Below are positions 6,638 to 27,641 of a DNA stretch of 27,641 nt, in pieces. This DNA is from a virus. The stretch spans positions 1-27,641 of IMG/VR virus record IMGVR_UViG_3300033153_006512. The stretch is one strand, 5' to 3'. A model generated the notes under the pieces. The model worked only from the letters and a program-made list of their open reading frames with translations. It was not told the DNA's origin and searched no databases. Numbering within the stretch: position 1 is the first letter of the stretch; each line of letters opens with the position of its first letter. Made by a program: the position numbers and the translations under genes.

Positions 6638-7741
6638 ATGGCACGAATAGGCTTTGGCGATCTCAAAGATCAGGGACTTCACCCTCTTTGGGACTTGGCC
6701 GAATTAAAGAAAATGGAACTGGAAGACGGAACCTCTATTGAGCAGATGCTCCGAGAGGTTCAAGATGTAGCGTCTGCCGTTTCCGGTGAAATCACTCGAT
6801 TACCGCATTATTCCACACTTTTCAACGTCCAAGACGCTCCGGAAATGGAATACGGCACTTTCACTGGTGGTGGCATTCAGGAAATGACCGAATACAGCGT
6901 TCCCGATCCGTACAAGGGCAAAACGACCGGACACATGTTGCCGATCAAGATGTTCACCCGTGCAATCGGCTGGACATTCCTCGCCCTCGAAAGACGCCGA
7001 CGCAATCAGTTGGAAGCGGATCTCAATGTCGTAGTAGACGACATTCGCAACCATTATCAGCAAAAAGTTTTGACCCGTTTCTTCAAAATGGAAGCGGACG
7101 CAGTTGGTGATACGGCTGGCGCATCTGTTCCTTTCGCAGATGGTGGGACAGGCGACGCGAACTGGATTCCTCTAAGATCGCCCGATGGCGTAGAGTTTGA
7201 CGCCGCGCACGATCATTATCTTCGAGTAGCGACTCTCGACACGACAGCTATCGTAGCTGCGGTCAAGCACCTCAAAGAACACGGACATCAACCTCCGTAT
7301 GACTTGATTGGCGCAGAGTTGGACGCCGCGACATATATAGCCCTAGACGAGTGGAGAGCACCCGTTTGGCCTGGGATTATCTATCGCGACACCAGCGCGG
7401 GAATGGATCGAGCCTCCCTCAACGGAATTGAGGAATACGATGGCTTCATGGAAACAGTCGCCGGGATAGTCAAGGTTTGGTTTACGCCAAGATTGCCGAC
7501 TGGCTACTTCGGTATCTACAAGGACTACGGCGCTGGCGCAGATGGCGCACCATGCGCGATGAGAATCAATCCGAAGCTAGGCTTTGGCTGGCAAATGGTT
7601 CCTGGTAACTACGTGAACAGTCCGCTTAATCTCGGAGTCCTTCGTTCTGAGTTCGACCTCGGTGTCGGCAAAGACCGAACGAACGGTGTGTTCACCAAGG
7701 TGTTCGCTGACGGTGACTACGTAACTCCAGATATCGGCTAA
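6638..7741 (+). CDS. Major capsid protein (HK97-fold, probable)
   Basis: 367 residues with GGAGG at 6626-6630. It starts with a helical arm (LAELKKMELEDGTSIEQMLR) and then has beta-rich and mixed segments typical of HK97-fold capsid proteins (TGHMLPIKMFTRAIGWTFLA, a long helix RRRRNQLEADLNVVVDDIRN, and a late MRINPKLGFGWQMVPGNYVN). Size, strong initiation and order scaffold-decoration-capsid support the call. No protease or long N-terminal delta domain is seen, so maturation is probably scaffold-assisted rather than HK97-like. About 450 copies per head would be expected for a T=7 shell, but the triangulation number cannot be read from sequence. Confidence 0.82.
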   Translation: MARIGFGDLKDQGLHPLWDLAELKKMELEDGTSIEQMLREVQDVASAVSGEITRLPHYSTLFNVQDAPEMEYGTFTGGGIQEMTEYSVPDPYKGKTTGHMLPIKMFTRAIGWTFLALERRRRNQLEADLNVVVDDIRNHYQQKVLTRFFKMEADAVGDTAGASVPFADGGTGDANWIPLRSPDGVEFDAAHDHYLRVATLDTTAIVAAVKHLKEHGHQPPYDLIGAELDAATYIALDEWRAPVWPGIIYRDTSAGMDRASLNGIEEYDGFMETVAGIVKVWFTPRLPTGYFGIYKDYGAGADGAPCAMRINPKLGFGWQMVPGNYVNSPLNLGVLRSEFDLGVGKDRTNGVFTKVFADGDYVTPDIG

Positions 7742-10835: not shown

Positions 10836-11354
10836 ATGACAAAAACAGCCAATAGTTATATCTCCGATCAAGGAGAACTTGTCTTAACCGTAGACTCCGT
10901 ACTAACGGACATAGCGTACTTCACCACCGCAGAACCAGTTATTTTTGACGGTGTGCTGAGAAAGCTCGAGGAAACGTCTCCCAAAACCAGGGAATATTCA
11001 GAGGTCTTTGTAACCGGAAGTACATCGCCTATCAAGACGATGAGTTCCAAGCAGACCGCAACAGAATGGACCTTGACCATACTTGACGACTACAGTGCCG
11101 GAAACACTGGCGAATGGGGAACCGACGAACTCACCGCAGTTGAAACATTCCAGCAGATCATGGACAACGCCTTAGTAATAGCGGACCTGGCTTGTACACC
11201 GGCCGGAGGCGCGACAGGCGACATCGAAACCACGCTGGTCAACGTCGACGTAAAATCCGTAACCCACCCACCGATTGACTCTGACGCGACGAACCCGCAA
11301 GAAGTAGTAATCATGCTCGTGGTCGAAAGCTACACCAAGGCCGCACATAGTTAA
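10836..11354 (+). CDS. Tail tube protein, copy 1
   Basis: 172 residues with GAGGT at 10823-10827. It shares with the next gene long identical blocks: TANSYISDQGELV at the N-terminus, EETSPKTREYSEVFV and SPIKTMSSKQTATEWTLTIL in the middle, and GDIETTLVNVDVKS plus PPIDSDATNPQEV near the C-terminus. It is beta-rich and of the size of siphophage major tail proteins, and sits between tail terminator and chaperone genes, where the tube gene is expected. Differences concentrate at residues about 17-42 and 88-122, which may be exposed loops. Confidence 0.7.
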   Translation: MTKTANSYISDQGELVLTVDSVLTDIAYFTTAEPVIFDGVLRKLEETSPKTREYSEVFVTGSTSPIKTMSSKQTATEWTLTILDDYSAGNTGEWGTDELTAVETFQQIMDNALVIADLACTPAGGATGDIETTLVNVDVKSVTHPPIDSDATNPQEVVIMLVVESYTKAAHS

Positions 11355-11367
11355 ATAGGAAAACAAT

Positions 11368-11895
11368 ATGCCAGATAAAACAGCCAATAGTTATATATCT
11401 GATCAAGGCGAATTAGTATTCGTCATCAGCGCAGCAGCCGTGACCGCAATCGCCGCCATAACCACAGAAGAAGATATGATCCTTGATCTCGTTCTGCGGA
11501 AGTTTGAAGAAACGTCCCCTAAGACCAGGGAATATTCCGAGGTGTTTGTTGCAGGAGACGTCAGTCCCATAAAGACTATGAGTTCCAAGCAAACCGCAAC
11601 GGAATGGACCTTGACCATACTCGACGACTATTCAAGCGGCGGGACACCGGAACTCGGTGGTACTCCTTGGACCACAGCCGTAGAGCTTTTCCAAGAATAT
11701 ATGGATGCAGCGTATACTCTTGAGGAATTGTCACTCACTCCCGCAGGTGGAGTGGCCGGAGACATCGAAACCACATTGGTGAACGTAGATGTGAAGTCGA
11801 TTACCCACCCGCCGATTGACTCTGACGCAACCAACCCGCAAGAAGTGACAATTATGCTGGTCGTGGAAAGCTACACAAAGGCCGCACATGGTTAA
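11368..11895 (+). CDS. Tail tube protein, copy 2 (tandem paralogue)
   Basis: 175 residues with AGGA at 11357-11360, only 13 nt after copy 1. It is aligned end to end with copy 1, with identical blocks such as KTMSSKQTATEWTLTILDDY and HPPIDSDATNPQEV and variable blocks between them. Nucleotide matches through the conserved blocks are also high, with mostly synonymous changes, so the pair arose by tandem duplication. One copy may be the tube subunit and the other a minor or capping tube protein, or both may co-assemble. The last 8 nt overlap the chaperone start. Confidence 0.7.
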   Translation: MPDKTANSYISDQGELVFVISAAAVTAIAAITTEEDMILDLVLRKFEETSPKTREYSEVFVAGDVSPIKTMSSKQTATEWTLTILDDYSSGGTPELGGTPWTTAVELFQEYMDAAYTLEELSLTPAGGVAGDIETTLVNVDVKSITHPPIDSDATNPQEVTIMLVVESYTKAAHG

Positions 11896-18398: not shown

Positions 18399-21300
18399 AT
18401 GCCAGGACCTAAGACCCATTACGGGAAACGCTCAAAAGATAAAGAGTCAAGAGAAATAAAGCAACGCATGAACATTCCTGCCGTTGCTGGCGGGGGAGGA
18501 GTAACCGACCATGGCGACCTAACCGGCCTGGCCGATGACGATCACGCGAATTACATGCACTTAACCGCCGCCAGGGTGGTGACAGCGCAACATTCTTTCA
18601 GTCCATCTTCAGCCCAGGCGCCCTTCGTATTGGGAGCAAACGCACACGACCAGATAGTTACCGGCCTATATGCAGAGCAAGCCGACCAACTCCACAAAGA
18701 TGTAATCGCCGGAGCAGGAATGACTGGCGGGGGAACGCTTACTTCCGATACTACCCTTAACGTCATCGGTGGTGTTGGAATCGCTGTCAATGCTGATGAC
18801 GTTGCACTTGGCACACCTACCTCACTTTCCGTGTTGACCTCAAATGACGTTAGCGGAACAACGCACGAACACGAAATCATTTCAACAGAGGGCGCAGCTC
18901 CTGGTGGATCTAAAATTCTGTCCACCGACGCTAGCGGCTATTTCCAGGCGACTAGACTAGGGTTAGGTGTGGCTCCTGGGACATGGGCATTAAACATTCA
19001 AAACAGCTCTGTTCCACAAATGAGGCTTGCTTATTCTGGCCTAGCCGCCGATACAGTTTATATAGGAGCGGACAGCGCAGGAAATCTTGAAATAACTCCC
19101 TACGGCGATCTAGAACTAAAAAGCGGCTCCCTTGAGATAACCAGCGGGGGCATTGCCTTGAACGGCTTAACTGCTACGGATGATGACTTCAGATCACAAG
19201 GAGACATTTCTATTCAAGGTGGTCTTTACATCGGCAATTGGAACGAAAACCCTACTACGTATAGCATAGTTGTCGACCAGCAATCTGAAGACGGTATGGC
19301 TTTTTCTCTCCGTTCTGGCGATGTCACCCACGGCATGACCGATCTGGCACATACTGAAGATTACCTGATTATGCGCAAGCTCGTCGGCGGTGGAGGGGGA
19401 CTTCGTTTCGAGGCTTTTGGCGACACCGGAGTAAACATACCTACAACGATGATGTTGCGGGCAACTACATCAGAAGCTCTCGACACTACAAAAGGCACAA
19501 GCACACGTGCGGTATTAGAGCTGGAATCATACGAGAAAGACGGAACCACCCGACAGGCTCCCGCCAATGCCGATGGAGCTATCTTTGCCGTTCGTAGTGG
19601 CTCTACAACCAGATTTATAGTTGATTCAAAAGGAGATGCTTGGCTTGACAATTATCTTGGAATAGGAATCGCGCCAAGTTACCCATTACACATTCTCTCG
19701 ACTACCGAACCACAGATACGGATAGAGCACACAAGCGGTATTGACTATGCCGATCTCAGCGTAGACAGCAACGGTATGCTAACGATTGATCCAACAGGAA
19801 CCCTAGATCTACTAGCCAACACAACCGTAACCTCGACCACAGCGAACCAGCTCAGAGTAGCGTATGACGGTAACGACTACTTCAACATCGATGTTAGCTC
19901 TGGTGGCACAGCCCACCTCTCCACCTATGATGGCCCAATTTACATTACACCTAATGTTAATGGGGGCACTCCATACAGAAGCGAAATATATTTGCGAGGG
20001 TGGGTATCCATTCAAGGCTACACGATTGCACCAGAAGCGGCATTGCATATATCCGATCCCACTCAGCCGCAAGTGACTATTAGATCAGGAGTGGCGTCTA
20101 CCGCAATCAACATTTCCGCTTTTGGAACCTATGCTGTAATCGATACTGCCGCCAATGACAACCTAGAGTTAAAACCAGGCGGAGATCTTAAACTACTGCC
20201 AATCTCTGGCAAGACCGAGATAACCGGAACACTTGAATTCCAAAGTGCCTCTGATGTAACTACGGTGTCAGGAAATTTGACACTTCAACCAGCCGGAGCA
20301 TTGGTTCACAACCCAATAGGGAACCTGATTCATCCGGAAGATAATTATGATGTAAATCTAGGTTCTATAGATAAAAAATACCTGGCACTTCACGCCGCAG
20401 AATTATGGGTGCAGACTCTGGTTGCCGAAAATGTAATGTCAACCATCGGCGGCAGAATCATCGTAACACCAACCACTCAACTAACACTAGATCTGGACAC
20501 AAGCGTTTACACCATTTCCGTTGAGCATAACGAAATGCAAATAGGCGACATCATAATGCTTGAGGCCGATGGAAAGATCGAGTTTATGAGGATCGAAGGA
20601 GCAGCGGGGGGTGGAGGACCGTACACCTACGTTGTCGAACGCGATTTAGACGAAACGGGCGAAAACCAATGGTACGCAGGTGACGCATTGGCAAACACAG
20701 GCGCGGCAGGAGACGGTTTCATTGACATGTACTCCGTTAGCGGGGTGCAAGCAGCGTCTTCTTATGGGCCAACAATCGTGGGAAATGTTCGCAATGCGCA
20801 AACGGCCTCCGAGCTGTTCCTTAATGGCGATTTTGAAGATCGCGATCAGACTAATATGCTCATTGCCCAAAACTACACGCTCGAATCCACCGGCCAAGTT
20901 CACAAAATAGAAAATTATCGTTTTGAGACTCTTGGCGGTGGCGGCGCAGATGTCTTTGCGAGTTGGGCAGAAACCGCAGGTGATGGAGCAATCGCAGCAG
21001 ATGGCACTATCAAATATACTGGCAACTACGCCCTCAAACTAACAGCAGGGGCTTCAGCAAACACCTATATCTCTCAAAGCGAAGTAACTACAACTACAGA
21101 CGGTGCTGAGTTCATGTGGCAGTTCTGGACTCGCGGCGATGGCTCAAATGCCGCACGTATTAGGGTTTATGATAACACGAATACAGCCGACATTGTCCCA
21201 TTGCAAAGCACAGGAATAACCAGCACTACTTGGACTTACGTTGAGCTTTTCTTCAGTATGCCATGGGGGTGCAGTAGTTGGCAAGTGGAAATGCACTGTC

Positions 21301-24300
21301 CCTCTGCCAATGGCGGCATTGGCTGGTTTGACGAAATGCGCGTTTGCGAAATCACGATGGACACGTTTGGCTATTGGGGTGATTCTGCTACTGGTAGCAA
21401 GACAGCGTTCAGAGAGCATCTTGTGTCCTATAGCGGCACAAAATCCGCTCAGTTTACAGCAGGAAATCCCGCAGTTAGACGGCCCGCCCTTCGTGAAACT
21501 TCTAACACCGTTACGCCATATGAACAATACGCATTAGGAGCGATGTACAAATCCTCGACTGGAGGAGAAGCACGTGCTGCCGTTAAAGAAACGGTTACTC
21601 AGACCTATATTACTCCTATAGAGGGCAACTCAGGAATCATTGATGCTGTTCCGACTGACTGGACCCTTCAAGAACGCCATTTCCTAATTCCTCCTACCGG
21701 AAGCAATATGTGGATAATGTGGTACGGCTCTAATGACGACGATGAAGTCATTTGGGTAGACGATGTGTTCTTGTATAAGTCCAATGTTTGGGATGATTGG
21801 ATACAAAGCACTGACACTGGCGATATTCACGAAACTGACCCGACTACTTCCGTCACAGGCAACCATTCCATCAAGCTAACAAAAGGCACAGGCGGCGACG
21901 GCTTAAATCATGTAAGGCAAGAAGTTGCCGTCTCTAGTAGTACTGATTATAAAATAACGTTTTACACCAAAGGCGACGGCACATACGATGGTCAGTGGGG
22001 TGTTTGGGACAATACACATACAGAGTGGCTCCAAGCCAGAATAGATACGGGAATAACAGCGGGTAGTTGGGGGAAAAAGACGTTTTCATTCACGACTGGA
22101 CCGACCACGATTGCGGTCACGCTGTACTTGTTCGCTCCAGCCACAACGGGAGGATCGGCCTGGTTTGATGCCGCTAGTTTTACAGAGCCTGAAATATACA
22201 ACGATTGGTCGGAATATTTCGCACTTGGCAATCTCAAGGGCAACTACGGATACGGAGCAGACACTTACGCATTGGGTCTTGGCCGATATGACGACACCTA
22301 CAATCACATAACTATAGATTCGGACGATGGCATTAGATTCTACGATGGACAAACCCTAGTTATTGGTCAATGGAACGGTCCCGAAATGACTCTCGGAGCC
22401 TACAATGCAGAAAGGTTAATTCTTAATGACACAGAACTAAAACTTGTAGACGAAACAAGTGTTGAGCAAATTAAAATATCGGGCAATCCATCGACTATGG
22501 TCATCGGACCTGCGGCAAAAGAACATCTCGAGATTACAGCCGGAGCAATAGAATTCTATGATTCGGTAGGTAGCGCGATCATAGCCTCTCTTGCCAGTGA
22601 CATATGGACAGTCGGGAAAATAGCCACAGAACACATTTCAATAACCAGCACCGCCATTGAAATAAAAAGTGACGCCTCGACCGTCCTGGGAAAATTTGAA
22701 GGATCCACTATCACGCTTGGCGAAGGTTTTCCTGCAACGCCGCAAACCGTTCTAGGCGTAGACAGCATCACAATGTCAGACGTCAACGGAAACGAATACT
22801 TTGAATTAGCCGATGGCGAAATGTCACTCGGGTTCGCGACCACCGAACATCTCGATTTTACAGGTTCGGAAATGCAATTTTACGTAGGCGTAATTTCGTA
22901 TGGCGAAATGTCGTCTACTCTATGGAGACTCGGACGCGACAATCTTCAAAGGTTGGAAATTACAGCAAGTAGTATCGACATGTACGATAGCGCCAATGAC
23001 AAGAAAATTGCTCTTAGTGTGGCAAGTGGACTTCAATTCTACGACGAGCTAGGAACACAGATTGTCCAATTAGCTTCCGATGGAGACTTCCTAATAGGGA
23101 CGGTCGCCACAAACCAAGGCAACATGTTCTATGACTACGCCGCAAAACAACTACAGTTTCGCGGAGGTACAAATGGTCTTGACGTAGAGGCGTACGTCGA
23201 CACAGATGGCAGAATATACGCAGGTAGCGGTGCGGTCCAACTTGGCAAGGGTGGAATAAAGCTAAACACTGACGCCTCCGGAGGGTCCGGAGAAGCAGCC
23301 ATAAACATTTACGGTGGTGGCTTTAGCACCCTCATAGGACATGTGTCCGGTTCTTACTCAACTGGCGGGGGTGGCGCATACAGCCTCGATCTAGAATTAG
23401 AGGGTTTCGGCAATAGTCTATACCTCAGACTGACCAGCGCGGGATCAACCTTTGACTATCTGCAAGGTTATAGCGACGATTTTATAATCTTCGAAACACT
23501 AAACTATGGAGTCAACATACATGGAAAAGGCCTGTATGTTGGCACAGGAGTTTCAGGTTCGGCAATACCGGAAGGGGAATTGCAGGTAGTAGGCAAAATA
23601 TTCGTCAATGAAACAGTAGACACTTTCACGACTAAGGGTTTGGTCATTAATATTGGGGACCGCAACGATTACGGCCTAACCATCAAACAGGCCGGAGTGT
23701 TTGGCAGCACAGGACATACTTTTACAGCATTAGCAGAAAAGGACACCTTCTTTGGTATAAACGCTTGGGCAGACGATCTTGGTGGAGCAGCCATCAGAGG
23801 CTATTCGCGTGACGCCCAATCTCGCGGTGTATCAATACACGGATATGTAGCAAACCCAAACACTACGTCGCCAGGCACTTCCGTGGTGGGCGTTGTTATA
23901 ATTGATGCAGCAGACAATAGTGGGACTGGCGCGGGAACCGTAGGCACTACCGGAAACATATTCGCCGTACAAAACAACGGATCTACTCGTGCGGTTCTCA
24001 GGGGCAACGGAGATTGGTACACAGATGGAACTAACTCCGGAACCTGGGACGACTATGACGACATTGCGCTAATAAGCGGGCTAAGAGCCAGCCTGTTGCC
24101 GGTCGGCCATGAATTAAGAGAACGATTCGGCATATGGATCGAGAAAAGCAAACACATACTTTCAGAAAGTGGCATTGTTTCCTACAATGACGATGGACAT
24201 CATTTCGTCAACCATCTCGGGCTACAATGGCTCACTATTGACACTCTTAGGCAATTCTATGACAAGCAGGAAATTGTCAACGAAAGCGTCTTTGATGAAT

Positions 24301-24362
24301 TGGCACGTTATAAAAAAGCGTTTAAGATTCTAGGAATAGATCCTGATTTAGTGGAGGCATAA
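18399..24362 (+). CDS. Giant tail fibre with three CBM-like domains
   Basis: 1987 residues. The N-terminus is basic, then comes the fibre motif HGDLTGLADDDHANY (about residues 38-52), common in phage fibres, and a GMTGGGTLTSDTTLNV-type strand motif (about 107-122). Repeating modules follow (about 190-650) with patterns such as LGIGIAPSYPLHI and PQIRIEHTS followed by DSNGMLTIDPTG. Three consecutive carbohydrate-binding-module-like (CBM4/9-type) jelly rolls follow at about 803-986, 988-1128 and 1130-1270, each ending in a W/IWFD-V motif (GWFDEMRV, VIWVDDVFL, AWFDAASF). Residues about 1303-1575 hold about seven beta repeats of about 36 residues. The C-terminus is helical (GLRASLLPVGHELRERFGI, ELARYKKAFKILGI). 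It probably binds the host surface. Confidence 0.8.
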   Translation: MPGPKTHYGKRSKDKESREIKQRMNIPAVAGGGGVTDHGDLTGLADDDHANYMHLTAARVVTAQHSFSPSSAQAPFVLGANAHDQIVTGLYAEQADQLHKDVIAGAGMTGGGTLTSDTTLNVIGGVGIAVNADDVALGTPTSLSVLTSNDVSGTTHEHEIISTEGAAPGGSKILSTDASGYFQATRLGLGVAPGTWALNIQNSSVPQMRLAYSGLAADTVYIGADSAGNLEITPYGDLELKSGSLEITSGGIALNGLTATDDDFRSQGDISIQGGLYIGNWNENPTTYSIVVDQQSEDGMAFSLRSGDVTHGMTDLAHTEDYLIMRKLVGGGGGLRFEAFGDTGVNIPTTMMLRATTSEALDTTKGTSTRAVLELESYEKDGTTRQAPANADGAIFAVRSGSTTRFIVDSKGDAWLDNYLGIGIAPSYPLHILSTTEPQIRIEHTSGIDYADLSVDSNGMLTIDPTGTLDLLANTTVTSTTANQLRVAYDGNDYFNIDVSSGGTAHLSTYDGPIYITPNVNGGTPYRSEIYLRGWVSIQGYTIAPEAALHISDPTQPQVTIRSGVASTAINISAFGTYAVIDTAANDNLELKPGGDLKLLPISGKTEITGTLEFQSASDVTTVSGNLTLQPAGALVHNPIGNLIHPEDNYDVNLGSIDKKYLALHAAELWVQTLVAENVMSTIGGRIIVTPTTQLTLDLDTSVYTISVEHNEMQIGDIIMLEADGKIEFMRIEGAAGGGGPYTYVVERDLDETGENQWYAGDALANTGAAGDGFIDMYSVSGVQAASSYGPTIVGNVRNAQTASELFLNGDFEDRDQTNMLIAQNYTLESTGQVHKIENYRFETLGGGGADVFASWAETAGDGAIAADGTIKYTGNYALKLTAGASANTYISQSEVTTTTDGAEFMWQFWTRGDGSNAARIRVYDNTNTADIVPLQSTGITSTTWTYVELFFSMPWGCSSWQVEMHCPSANGGIGWFDEMRVCEITMDTFGYWGDSATGSKTAFREHLVSYSGTKSAQFTAGNPAVRRPALRETSNTVTPYEQYALGAMYKSSTGGEARAAVKETVTQTYITPIEGNSGIIDAVPTDWTLQERHFLIPPTGSNMWIMWYGSNDDDEVIWVDDVFLYKSNVWDDWIQSTDTGDIHETDPTTSVTGNHSIKLTKGTGGDGLNHVRQEVAVSSSTDYKITFYTKGDGTYDGQWGVWDNTHTEWLQARIDTGITAGSWGKKTFSFTTGPTTIAVTLYLFAPATTGGSAWFDAASFTEPEIYNDWSEYFALGNLKGNYGYGADTYALGLGRYDDTYNHITIDSDDGIRFYDGQTLVIGQWNGPEMTLGAYNAERLILNDTELKLVDETSVEQIKISGNPSTMVIGPAAKEHLEITAGAIEFYDSVGSAIIASLASDIWTVGKIATEHISITSTAIEIKSDASTVLGKFEGSTITLGEGFPATPQTVLGVDSITMSDVNGNEYFELADGEMSLGFATTEHLDFTGSEMQFYVGVISYGEMSSTLWRLGRDNLQRLEITASSIDMYDSANDKKIALSVASGLQFYDELGTQIVQLASDGDFLIGTVATNQGNMFYDYAAKQLQFRGGTNGLDVEAYVDTDGRIYAGSGAVQLGKGGIKLNTDASGGSGEAAINIYGGGFSTLIGHVSGSYSTGGGGAYSLDLELEGFGNSLYLRLTSAGSTFDYLQGYSDDFIIFETLNYGVNIHGKGLYVGTGVSGSAIPEGELQVVGKIFVNETVDTFTTKGLVINIGDRNDYGLTIKQAGVFGSTGHTFTALAEKDTFFGINAWADDLGGAAIRGYSRDAQSRGVSIHGYVANPNTTSPGTSVVGVVIIDAADNSGTGAGTVGTTGNIFAVQNNGSTRAVLRGNGDWYTDGTNSGTWDDYDDIALISGLRASLLPVGHELRERFGIWIEKSKHILSESGIVSYNDDGHHFVNHLGLQWLTIDTLRQFYDKQEIVNESVFDELARYKKAFKILGIDPDLVEA

Positions 24363-25317: not shown

Positions 25318-27321
25318 ATGACCGCTACAACTTATGAACTCGTGGAGTTTCAACTCCAAGAGAACACAAGCGAAACAGGCACATTACTAGGCTCTTTGAA
25401 CTCCGACGAGTCTATTGGCGTAGGCACAGCAAACGCCTTTGCCATACGTCTCCAAATATGGAACGACAATAACCGGACATCAAACCGAACGTGGGGGTGG
25501 GAATACAAACTAAACTCCGGAAGCTGGATAGCCATAACAACGTCCAGCTCCGTTGCCAGAGCCTACGATGTCGCCGGACTAACAGACGGAGGGGATACAA
25601 CAAACAGGCTGACAAGTCGTGGTGGAGACTTCCTTACTGATAACAACGCGGTCTGCGAAAATGGAGTCGGCACAAGCTACACACATTCTAAGGGAGACTA
25701 TACAGAAGCACTCCTGTCCTTCTACATAATAGACGCTGACGTATCTGATACTGATAAAGTTTATTTCCGGCCCGTAGATGGCGTGACCGTGACAATGACC
25801 AACAATCCGGTCATTACGGTTTCTAAAGTTTCAGTAGTCACCTTCGCCGGAACCGCAGCCCTGGTTACAACGACTCCGGACATCGATCTTAATCTCTCCA
25901 TTCCCTTCACCGGAACAGCGGCATTAGTCACAACAACTCCAGGTATCGACCTTAATCTCGCCATTCCCTTCGGAGGCACAGCCGCATTTGTTACGACAAC
26001 ACCTGACACAGTTGTCATTACACTAACAAAGTTCTTCGCAGGAACCGCCGCGCTTGTCACAACAACTCCGGACATAGACCTCGCAGTAGCAAAGACATTC
26101 GGGGGGATCGCCGCACTCGTCACGACCACACCGGCCATAGACATTCTGGTAGACAAAGCGTTTGCCGGATCAACCGCGCTTCTCACGACGACCCCTGACA
26201 TAACACTAGCTGTAGCTAAGACATTTGGCGGGACAGTCTCGCTCGTCACGACAACGCCTGACACTGTTGTCATATCGCTTACAAAACTATTTGCAGGAAC
26301 CGCCGCGCTAGTCACAACGACGCCTGACATCGGCCTGGCTGTGGCTAGGACGTTCGCAGGAACCACAAGCCTTATCACAACAACCCCCGCCATTATTTTA
26401 GCCGTAGAGAAGGTATTTGGCGGTACTGCCAGCCTGGTTACAACAACTCCGGACACCGTTGTTTTAACGGTTGGTGGTCTTATAATATTTGCCGGAACCG
26501 CCGCCCTAATTACGACAACTCCCGCTATCGACCTTGGCCTAAACTTGGCCTTTGGTGGATCGGCCGCGCTCGTCACGACAACGCCAGGCGTTACGCTGGC
26601 CGTGGACAAGGTGTTCCAGGGCGCAACAGCTCTAATCACAACGACTCCGGACATCGATCTTCTGGTAGACAAGACGTTCGGAGGCATAGCCGCGCTCGTC
26701 ACAACGACTCCGGACACCGTTGTTGTCAAACTCGCCAAGCTATTCGCCGGAACAGCAGCGATGGTCACGGTAACTCCGGGCATCGATCTCAACGTAATCA
26801 AGACGTTCGGAGGCATAGCAGCATTAGTCACGACGACTCCGGACACCGTTGTCCTTACTTTGGCCGGTATCGTTTCGTTTGCAGGAACGTCAGCCCTTGT
26901 CACCCTAACGTCAAGCGCGGGCCTGTCAGTAACCAAAGTGTTCGCCGGACAAGCAGCATTAGATACCACAACCCCTTCTGTAGCATTAGATATTGCGAGA
27001 GGCTTTTCGGGTCAAGCCCATTTAATAACCTCTACTCCCTCAATAGACCTGAATTTAGCGAGAGGTTTTGGAGGAACTGCCCATGCACAATTTGTAACAA
27101 GTGACACAGTAACGCTCGGACTGGCAAAGTTATTTGCCGGAACAGCGCACATGCAATTCCTGACTCCAGATGACGTTGAGTTGTTATTGCGCGTGGCCGC
27201 TGGATTAGTTAGTATTAGCATAACGGCACGTATGCCAGGAGCATCAATCTCGGCCAGAAGGCCAGAGGCAACAGTCTCGGCAAGAAAGCCAGAGATAACT
27301 ATCACTGGAAGAAATGAATAA
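25318..27321 (+). CDS. Tandem-repeat tail/adhesin-like protein
   Basis: 667 residues with AAGGA at 25303-25307, starting directly after the previous stop. Residues 1-175 form a beta-rich module (FAIRLQIWNDNNRTSNRTWG, then EYKLNSGSWIAIT) of a type often seen in phage structural proteins. From residue 176 come 21 tandem repeats of 21-22 residues (core FAGTAALVTTTPDIDLxVxK), diverging toward the C-terminal end where the TTTP core becomes QFVTSDTV and QFLTPDDV. A short C-terminal tail (residues 633-667) holds four nonapeptide-like repeats (ASISARRPE, ATVSARKPE). Probably a long beta-structured fibre or spacer at the tail end. No enzyme domain. Confidence 0.7.
   Translation: MTATTYELVEFQLQENTSETGTLLGSLNSDESIGVGTANAFAIRLQIWNDNNRTSNRTWGWEYKLNSGSWIAITTSSSVARAYDVAGLTDGGDTTNRLTSRGGDFLTDNNAVCENGVGTSYTHSKGDYTEALLSFYIIDADVSDTDKVYFRPVDGVTVTMTNNPVITVSKVSVVTFAGTAALVTTTPDIDLNLSIPFTGTAALVTTTPGIDLNLAIPFGGTAAFVTTTPDTVVITLTKFFAGTAALVTTTPDIDLAVAKTFGGIAALVTTTPAIDILVDKAFAGSTALLTTTPDITLAVAKTFGGTVSLVTTTPDTVVISLTKLFAGTAALVTTTPDIGLAVARTFAGTTSLITTTPAIILAVEKVFGGTASLVTTTPDTVVLTVGGLIIFAGTAALITTTPAIDLGLNLAFGGSAALVTTTPGVTLAVDKVFQGATALITTTPDIDLLVDKTFGGIAALVTTTPDTVVVKLAKLFAGTAAMVTVTPGIDLNVIKTFGGIAALVTTTPDTVVLTLAGIVSFAGTSALVTLTSSAGLSVTKVFAGQAALDTTTPSVALDIARGFSGQAHLITSTPSIDLNLARGFGGTAHAQFVTSDTVTLGLAKLFAGTAHMQFLTPDDVELLLRVAAGLVSISITARMPGASISARRPEATVSARKPEITITGRNE
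25843..27195 (+). repeat. 21 tandem copies of a 21-22-codon repeat
   Basis: Protein-level repeat beginning with F(A/G)G(T/I/S)(A/T)AL(V/I)TTTP. Copies start every 63-66 nt, with two slightly longer ones. Nucleotide sequences have diverged but stretches such as GTCACAACGACTCCGGACA recur, so it grew by duplication of DNA. The last three copies are most diverged. Confidence 0.9.
27214..27318 (+). repeat. Four nonapeptide repeats at C-terminus
   Basis: Units of 27 nt encode ISITARMPG, ASISARRPE, ATVSARKPE and ITITGRNE. The consensus is x(S/T)(I/V)(S/T)(A/G)R(R/K)PE. Confidence 0.75.
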
Positions 27322-27342: not shown

Positions 27343-27641
27343 ATGGGTAGTATTACAAACAGTTTAGCGCAAGATCTTCTAGACCATGTTTTGAACAAGG
27401 TAGCTTACACGAATCCAGCCGCCATATTCCTGTGCCTTTGCACCGCCGATCCTGGTGACGGAGCCACAGGCGCAAGCATGAGCGAAGTGCCGGACGCCTT
27501 TTCGTATCAACGAACCGCGGTTGTTTTTGGAGCAGCCGCTTCTAGAGTAATCGACCAGTCAGGCTCGGTTGATTTTCCAACAGCCTCGGGTGGAGCTTGG
27601 GGAGATGCGACACACTGGTGTATCGTCGACAACCAGACATA
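27343..27641 (+). CDS. Tail fibre/tail tip protein, 5' part (cut by window end)
   Basis: About 99 codons, with GGAGAG at 27331-27336, 6 nt before the ATG; the frame stays open to the window edge. The product begins MGSITNSLAQDLLDHVLNK and contains VAYTNPAAIFLCLCTADPG, YQRTAVVFGAAASRV and VDFPTASGGAWGDATHW. This order (N-terminal helix, 'AxxYlxLxTadP', 'Y.R..v.f.a', 'v.Fp.at..wG..t..gi') is a widespread phage tail-fibre/tail-tip family. It follows the repeat protein by 21 nt. The C-terminus is outside the window. Confidence 0.75.
   Translation, partial: MGSITNSLAQDLLDHVLNKVAYTNPAAIFLCLCTADPGDGATGASMSEVPDAFSYQRTAVVFGAAASRVIDQSGSVDFPTASGGAWGDATHWCIVDNQT

Follow-up and report, generated by a model that had tools for sequence, protein, structure and literature searches.

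A 21-unit repeat protein encoded beside a Gp80-family gene in a viral contig: a probable thread for a flexible bead-chain fiber

The repeat gene and its surroundings

The window, by which we mean the whole 27,641-bp stretch of the virus record analyzed here, contains genes for terminase, tape measure and other tail proteins upstream of a gene for a long repeat protein. The window is probably a fragment, its last gene running past the contig end. The presence of a tape measure gene indicates that the phage has a long tail. The features with which we are concerned are the following.

25318 to 27321, plus strand: open frame with ATG start for the whole repeat protein (putative thread), 667 aa
25318 to 25842, plus strand: N-terminal region outside the repeats, residues 1-175 (175 aa), without detectable relative
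25843 to 27195, plus strand: 21 repeat units with the consensus FAGTAALVTTTPDIDLxVxKx, recognized by lag-21 self-similarity
27196 to 27318, plus strand: C-terminal tail of about four 9-aa repeats (SISITARMP / GASISARRP / EATVSARKP / EITITGRNE), with a 27-bp tandem repeat in the DNA and lag-9 self-similarity in the protein
27343 to 27641, plus strand: beginning of a bead gene of the Gp80 family (PF23140), truncated where the contig stops, at least 99 aa, Pfam E 5.5e-21

The array extends from residue 176 to about residue 626, with unit 1 starting at 25843 and unit 21 ending at about 27195, and every unit opens with F[AGTQS]G. An earlier note on this DNA had counted 21 repeats of 21-22 residues; the number of units stands, but their length is 21 aa in 14 of the 21 and 22-24 aa in the remainder, which gives a basic unit of 21 aa. 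The one to three extra residues, found in six units before the last one, are always placed directly ahead of the next F. None of the 21 units departs from F1, G3 or T11, and T9 and P12 are conserved in 19 of them. With a lag-21 self-similarity of Z = 16.7 relative to shuffles of the same protein, the repeat is far above chance. The protein is rich in Thr, Ala and Val, with a single Cys in its entire length and no Trp in the repeats.

Two types of unit endings were described in the earlier note as alternating and as a hint of higher-order duplication. The B-type endings (DTVV/DTVT) occur in units 3, 7, 10, 14, 16 and 20, and the actual order is AABAAABAABAAABABAAABA, with B units two to four units apart, rather than an alternation. 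Neither is a recent duplication of blocks supported, since synonymous codons are about equally identical whether units of one type or of both are compared (A-A 0.37, A-B 0.37, B-B 0.42), no exact DNA repeat longer than 24 bp occurs in the array, and units adjoining B units do not resemble each other more than other units do. The comparison between units gave a saturated pS of 0.71 with a pN of 0.33 (pN/pS 0.47), and the combination of saturated synonymous and unsaturated nonsynonymous sites indicates that the frame is translated and that the array is old. An antisense open frame of 402 aa (25761-26969) overlaps the repeat gene and is taken to be a by-product of the repeat codon pattern.

The repeat gene had also been placed next to the fiber gene. 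Three small open frames in fact separate it from the gene for a 1987-aa fiber-like protein (18399-24362), in which Pfam recognizes three CBM_4_9 (carbohydrate-binding) stretches, and its direct downstream neighbor is the Gp80-family gene, reached after a gap of 21 bp. The full Gp80 protein of the window is predicted from its relatives to have two domains and a length of about 256-268 aa. Its closest relatives (47-51% identity) are those of the loci L121, L119, L120 and L118, with 51% for L121, all of which have a repeat gene upstream and a two-domain Gp80.

Several other observations were made in the window. The neighboring genes at 10836-11354 and 11368-11895 have similar products of 172 and 175 aa (...EETSPKTREYSEVFV...SSKQTATEWTLTILDDYS...); the pair is a tandem duplication, and the duplicated gene probably encodes a major tail protein. 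A perfect 24-bp tandem repeat in two copies (1461-1508) lies ahead of the large terminase gene. The candidate for the major capsid protein, a 367-aa product encoded at 6638-7741, has an identical copy in another contig (L002, IMGVR_UViG_3300033154_000173), which extends about 3.2 kb further on the upstream side than the window and stops short of the repeat gene.

Linkage between the repeat and Gp80-family genes

No credible family for the repeat protein was found in Pfam, PHROG, NCBIfam or the PDB. Searches with the full-length protein (tblastn against phages and viral contigs) and with a strict DNA pattern gave zero matches, and two scans of bacterial genome contigs returned no relative. A match to SAM_5 (PF21872) covered only about 22 of 55 positions per repeat, short of the 55-residue helical domain, and is taken to be a spurious sum across repeats.

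Relatives were recovered with profiles built from the repeats only, the second of which had the units of the first relative added. These profiles identified three independent viral contigs (L008/G001, L015 and L016) whose repeat genes specify long proteins built from the 21-aa units seen in the window, in 10, 13 and 18 copies, respectively, and with extra residues always directly ahead of the next unit. A Gp80-family gene is present in all three, either adjoining the repeat gene or one small gene off. The L008 contig is circular by a 101-bp overlap with the closure inside the repeat gene, and once joined the gene is organized regularly in threes (21+21+26 aa per super-unit); in L016, four or five units make up a super-unit. 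The relatives of the repeat protein bear other N-terminal regions, which in L008, L015 and L016 are without evident similarity to each other. The N-terminal region in the window (residues 1-175) gave no phage match at E<=1 and no Pfam match; homology to that of L016 appeared plausible by eye and was not significant in BLASTP. The 9-aa C-terminal repeats, identified by lag-9 self-similarity, are common to the window, L119, L121 and L122.

In the opposite direction, Gp80 profiles yielded 160 loci, and an open frame was called repetitive if its self-similarity at 19-24 aa reached Z>=5 relative to shuffles. A repeat frame was located directly downstream of Gp80 at 114 of 142 loci and directly upstream at 6 of 147, as compared to 16 of 925 other frames, and 130 of the 136 repeat frames lie within two genes of Gp80. 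Because many of the 160 loci are related, we recounted by protein clusters at 40% identity, which left 7 of 13 downstream clusters with a repeat against 7 of 168 in the background (Fisher p 4e-6). The order seen in the window (repeat, then Gp80), together with a period of 21, recurs at six loci (L118, L119, L120, L121, L129 and L144). In the phages PVJ1 and Lietuvens, the product encoded after Gp80 begins with such repeats, and that of Lietuvens is annotated DUF2313. About one fifth of the downstream neighbors of Gp80 are without a repeat, many of them being other fiber-like proteins, which speaks against the thread reading developed below.

The repeat period also follows the number of Gp80 domains. 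Among loci with a scored repeat, the period is 20 in 119 of 119 with a one-domain Gp80 and 21 in 10 of 11 with a two-domain Gp80 (Fisher p 4e-14, uncorrected for kinship). A lag of 20 was likewise found in the GenBank one-domain phages BcepIL02, DC1, POI1126, PBC5, ct2t2046, C72C1, ctjtQ328, PVJ1 and JAMaL; the exceptions are JC1, with a lag of 22, and several phages without a clear repeat. A two-domain Gp80 with a period that is not clearly 21 was observed in two GenBank phages, a Desulfofustis phage and cta39025, again a point against the thread reading. The linkage and the covariation could both be due in part to co-inheritance among related phages. Judged by sequence, what appears to be a bead-and-thread gene pair occurs in many unrelated phages.

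A small conserved gene (104-111 aa), with an ...NGIVWG... motif near the end of its product, follows Gp80 in the two-domain group (L118:5283-5618, L120:5319-5633, L144:4427-4750 and L018:6795-7115). It is probably a third part of the fiber cassette, and would lie past the end of this contig.

The Gp80 fold and comparable bead-chain systems

Since the Gp80 gene in the window is cut, we modeled the 266-aa two-domain protein of L121 (pLDDT 91.1, pTM 0.90). The best PDB match in Foldseek was 8JOU_a, from the entry ‘Fiber I and fiber-tail-adaptor of phage GP4’, and VIA-align gave Z 11.2 over 124 residues for the same chain; the L121 protein, 51% identical to the truncated Gp80 of the window, thus has the fold of the GP4 Gp80. 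Neck chains of Bas63 (Z 9.7) and Sf14 (9C39_K, Z 9.5) were also matched. Weaker values were obtained for A511 gp105 (6HHK, Z 5.9), the phi812 arm (5.8) and the 7-7-1 tail-fiber entry (9RKV, 5.1); unrelated PRMT barrels score just as well. Profile-profile comparison of Gp80 with A511 gp105 and Milano gp125/gp127 detected no sequence homology.

Fiber I of the Ralstonia podophage GP4 reportedly consists of five Gp80 dimers joined by an elongated rope protein. Its PDB entry (8JOU) contains 10 Gp80 chains, and the likeness to the window lies in the bead gene, which belongs to the same Pfam family (PF23140) and has the same fold as judged through the L121 model. The Bcep22-like phages, related to GP4, have a Gp80 close to that of GP4 (E 2e-48), and the gene adjoining it contains about 11 repeats of 20-23 aa as counted by eye; for the one in BcepIL02, gp56, the lag-20 Z is 8.3, and both gp55 and gp56 of this phage carry an annotation as virion-associated. 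From these about 11 units and the ten Gp80 chains in GP4, we infer that roughly one unit per Gp80 subunit is plausible. A profile of the Bcep22-like repeat proteins found no credible PDB chain that could be the linking protein of GP4. The window differs from the GP4 system in that its units are 21 aa long, have an F.G...TTTP core and occur in 21 copies, in that a fused two-domain bead is predicted for it, and in that its tape measure gene implies a long tail, unlike the podophage GP4.

Comparable arrangements are found in other phages. In the neck whiskers of Sf14 and Bas63 (PDB 9C39, 9MT4), the neck chain has the Gp80 fold (Z 9.5-9.7), and the two whiskers of Sf14 are described as being threaded by a single whisker chain (PMC11821841); these whiskers differ in being short, with few beads, and a long repeat array has not been reported for them. 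For the A511 baseplate, BW3 is reported to form an extended chain that crosses the bead dimers, ‘like beads on a string’ (PMC10811340). The BW3TFN connectors of A511 and phi812 and the garland of Milano and 7-7-1 (6HHK, 9FKO, 9RKV) share with the present proposal a chain of dimeric beads, but the string, where assigned, is a baseplate wedge protein, and profile comparison detected no sequence similarity of the beads to Gp80, with a fold similarity to the Gp80 model that is weak for A511, phi812 and 7-7-1 (Z 5-6, in the PRMT-barrel range). The neck fiber gp82-gp81-gp80 of the Anabaena myophage A-1(L) is another bead-chain fiber with many bead copies; its beads are trimeric and, in the part of the account considered here, no separate thread is described (PMC10966104). 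Apart from its number, the A-1(L) ‘gp80’ has nothing in common with the Gp80 family, being a different protein.

The top match of the L121 model in VIA-align was chain 9H4P_BD, residues 390-951, of the Haloferax tailed virus 1 (HFTV1) tail, with Z 13.6 over 224 residues, and it covers the entire two-domain model. Going by this model, Gp80-type beads may reach archaeal viruses.

The repeat protein as a fiber thread

We consider it probable that the repeat protein serves as backbone thread in a flexible bead-chain fiber, the beads of which are supplied by the adjoining Gp80 gene. Each 21-aa unit would form an extended two-strand segment that lies on and holds a Gp80-family bead, and successive units would string many beads into a flexible fiber, which would be longer the more units there are. 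For the 21 units of the window this would mean about 10 to 21 beads, according to whether each unit is taken up by a single domain or by a whole two-domain bead. At the two ends of the protein, the N-terminal region and the tail of 9-aa repeats would probably anchor the fiber to the virion and/or bear a distal function. The threading of the protein through the Gp80 beads, the physical binding of units to beads, the ratio of one unit per Gp80 domain, the anchored end and the presence in the virion are all inferred from the comparisons above. Among the roles suggested in the earlier note, that of an extended spacer, here within a virion fiber, gains support from the Gp80 gene, whose linkage emerged whichever of the two genes the search started from; the comparisons gave no positive evidence for an adhesin or capsid-decorating role of the repeats themselves.

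An unlikely alternative is that the array folds by itself, as a beta-solenoid or a trimeric beta-spiral, into a stiff fiber shaft, with Gp80 as a mere neighbor in the same module. The strict 21-aa register, the alternating hydrophobic pattern and the strands throughout the single-sequence AlphaFold2 model would all suit such a shaft; however, the model, which is weak evidence in that it was built with no alignment, consists of many short strands with a mean pLDDT of 48.6 and a pTM of 0.40. Furthermore, an independent shaft would not be expected to be linked specifically to Gp80 over other genes at the same locus, nor to have a period that covaries with the number of Gp80 domains. The self-contained, long and regular beta structure envisaged earlier was thus not recovered as a confident fold, and the comparative evidence points instead to an extended thread organized by its partner. 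The low-confidence model is compatible with such a thread and is no proof of one.

Still less probable, in our view, is that the repeats are for the most part without structure and serve as a flexible spacer or adhesin for display of the N-terminal region, with no specific partner. The low confidence of the model and the Thr/Ala/Val-rich composition with one Cys and no Trp in the repeats agree with a loose chain, as does the variation of the N-terminal regions among relatives, but the invariance of F1, G3 and T11 despite saturated synonymous sites and the 21-aa spacing that is fixed across unrelated phages argue for a defined contact rather than a loose tether. That the array decorates the capsid instead of belonging to a tail, neck or vertex fiber is very improbable, for although PHROG 240, which contains the Gp80 family, is labeled ‘head protein’ and the gene pair lies among head genes in several relatives, the solved member of the family (8JOU) is a fiber beside a fiber-tail adaptor, and in the window the pair follows the tail fiber gene and closes the set of structural genes.

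The thread reading can be extended to a general bead-and-thread kit of phages, an idea to which we give slightly less than an even chance. In such a kit, a Gp80 bead would be combined with a thread of 20- or 21-aa units, the unit length matching the bead type (single-domain dimer or fused two-domain protein) and the number of units setting the number of beads and the length of the fiber. If so, fiber architecture could be read from sequence. The thread reading itself offers a testable function for many phage repeat proteins that so far lack annotation, the repeat being absent from Pfam, NCBIfam and PHROGs. It makes a thread gene predictable wherever a Gp80 bead gene occurs, and bead number and fiber length could be deduced from the genome. 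The relation between period and bead domain number, if it holds, would amount to a rule, readable in the sequence, by which a virion component is assembled.

The tails of the putative threads are of two kinds. Those with a period of 20, encoded by the frames downstream of Gp80 (L034-L113), end in a short tandem motif, ...NTWTPVSxDxNTWTxVS..., and those of the period-21 group in 9-aa ESLTxERT-like repeats that are unlike it. These two kinds may represent different anchoring parts.
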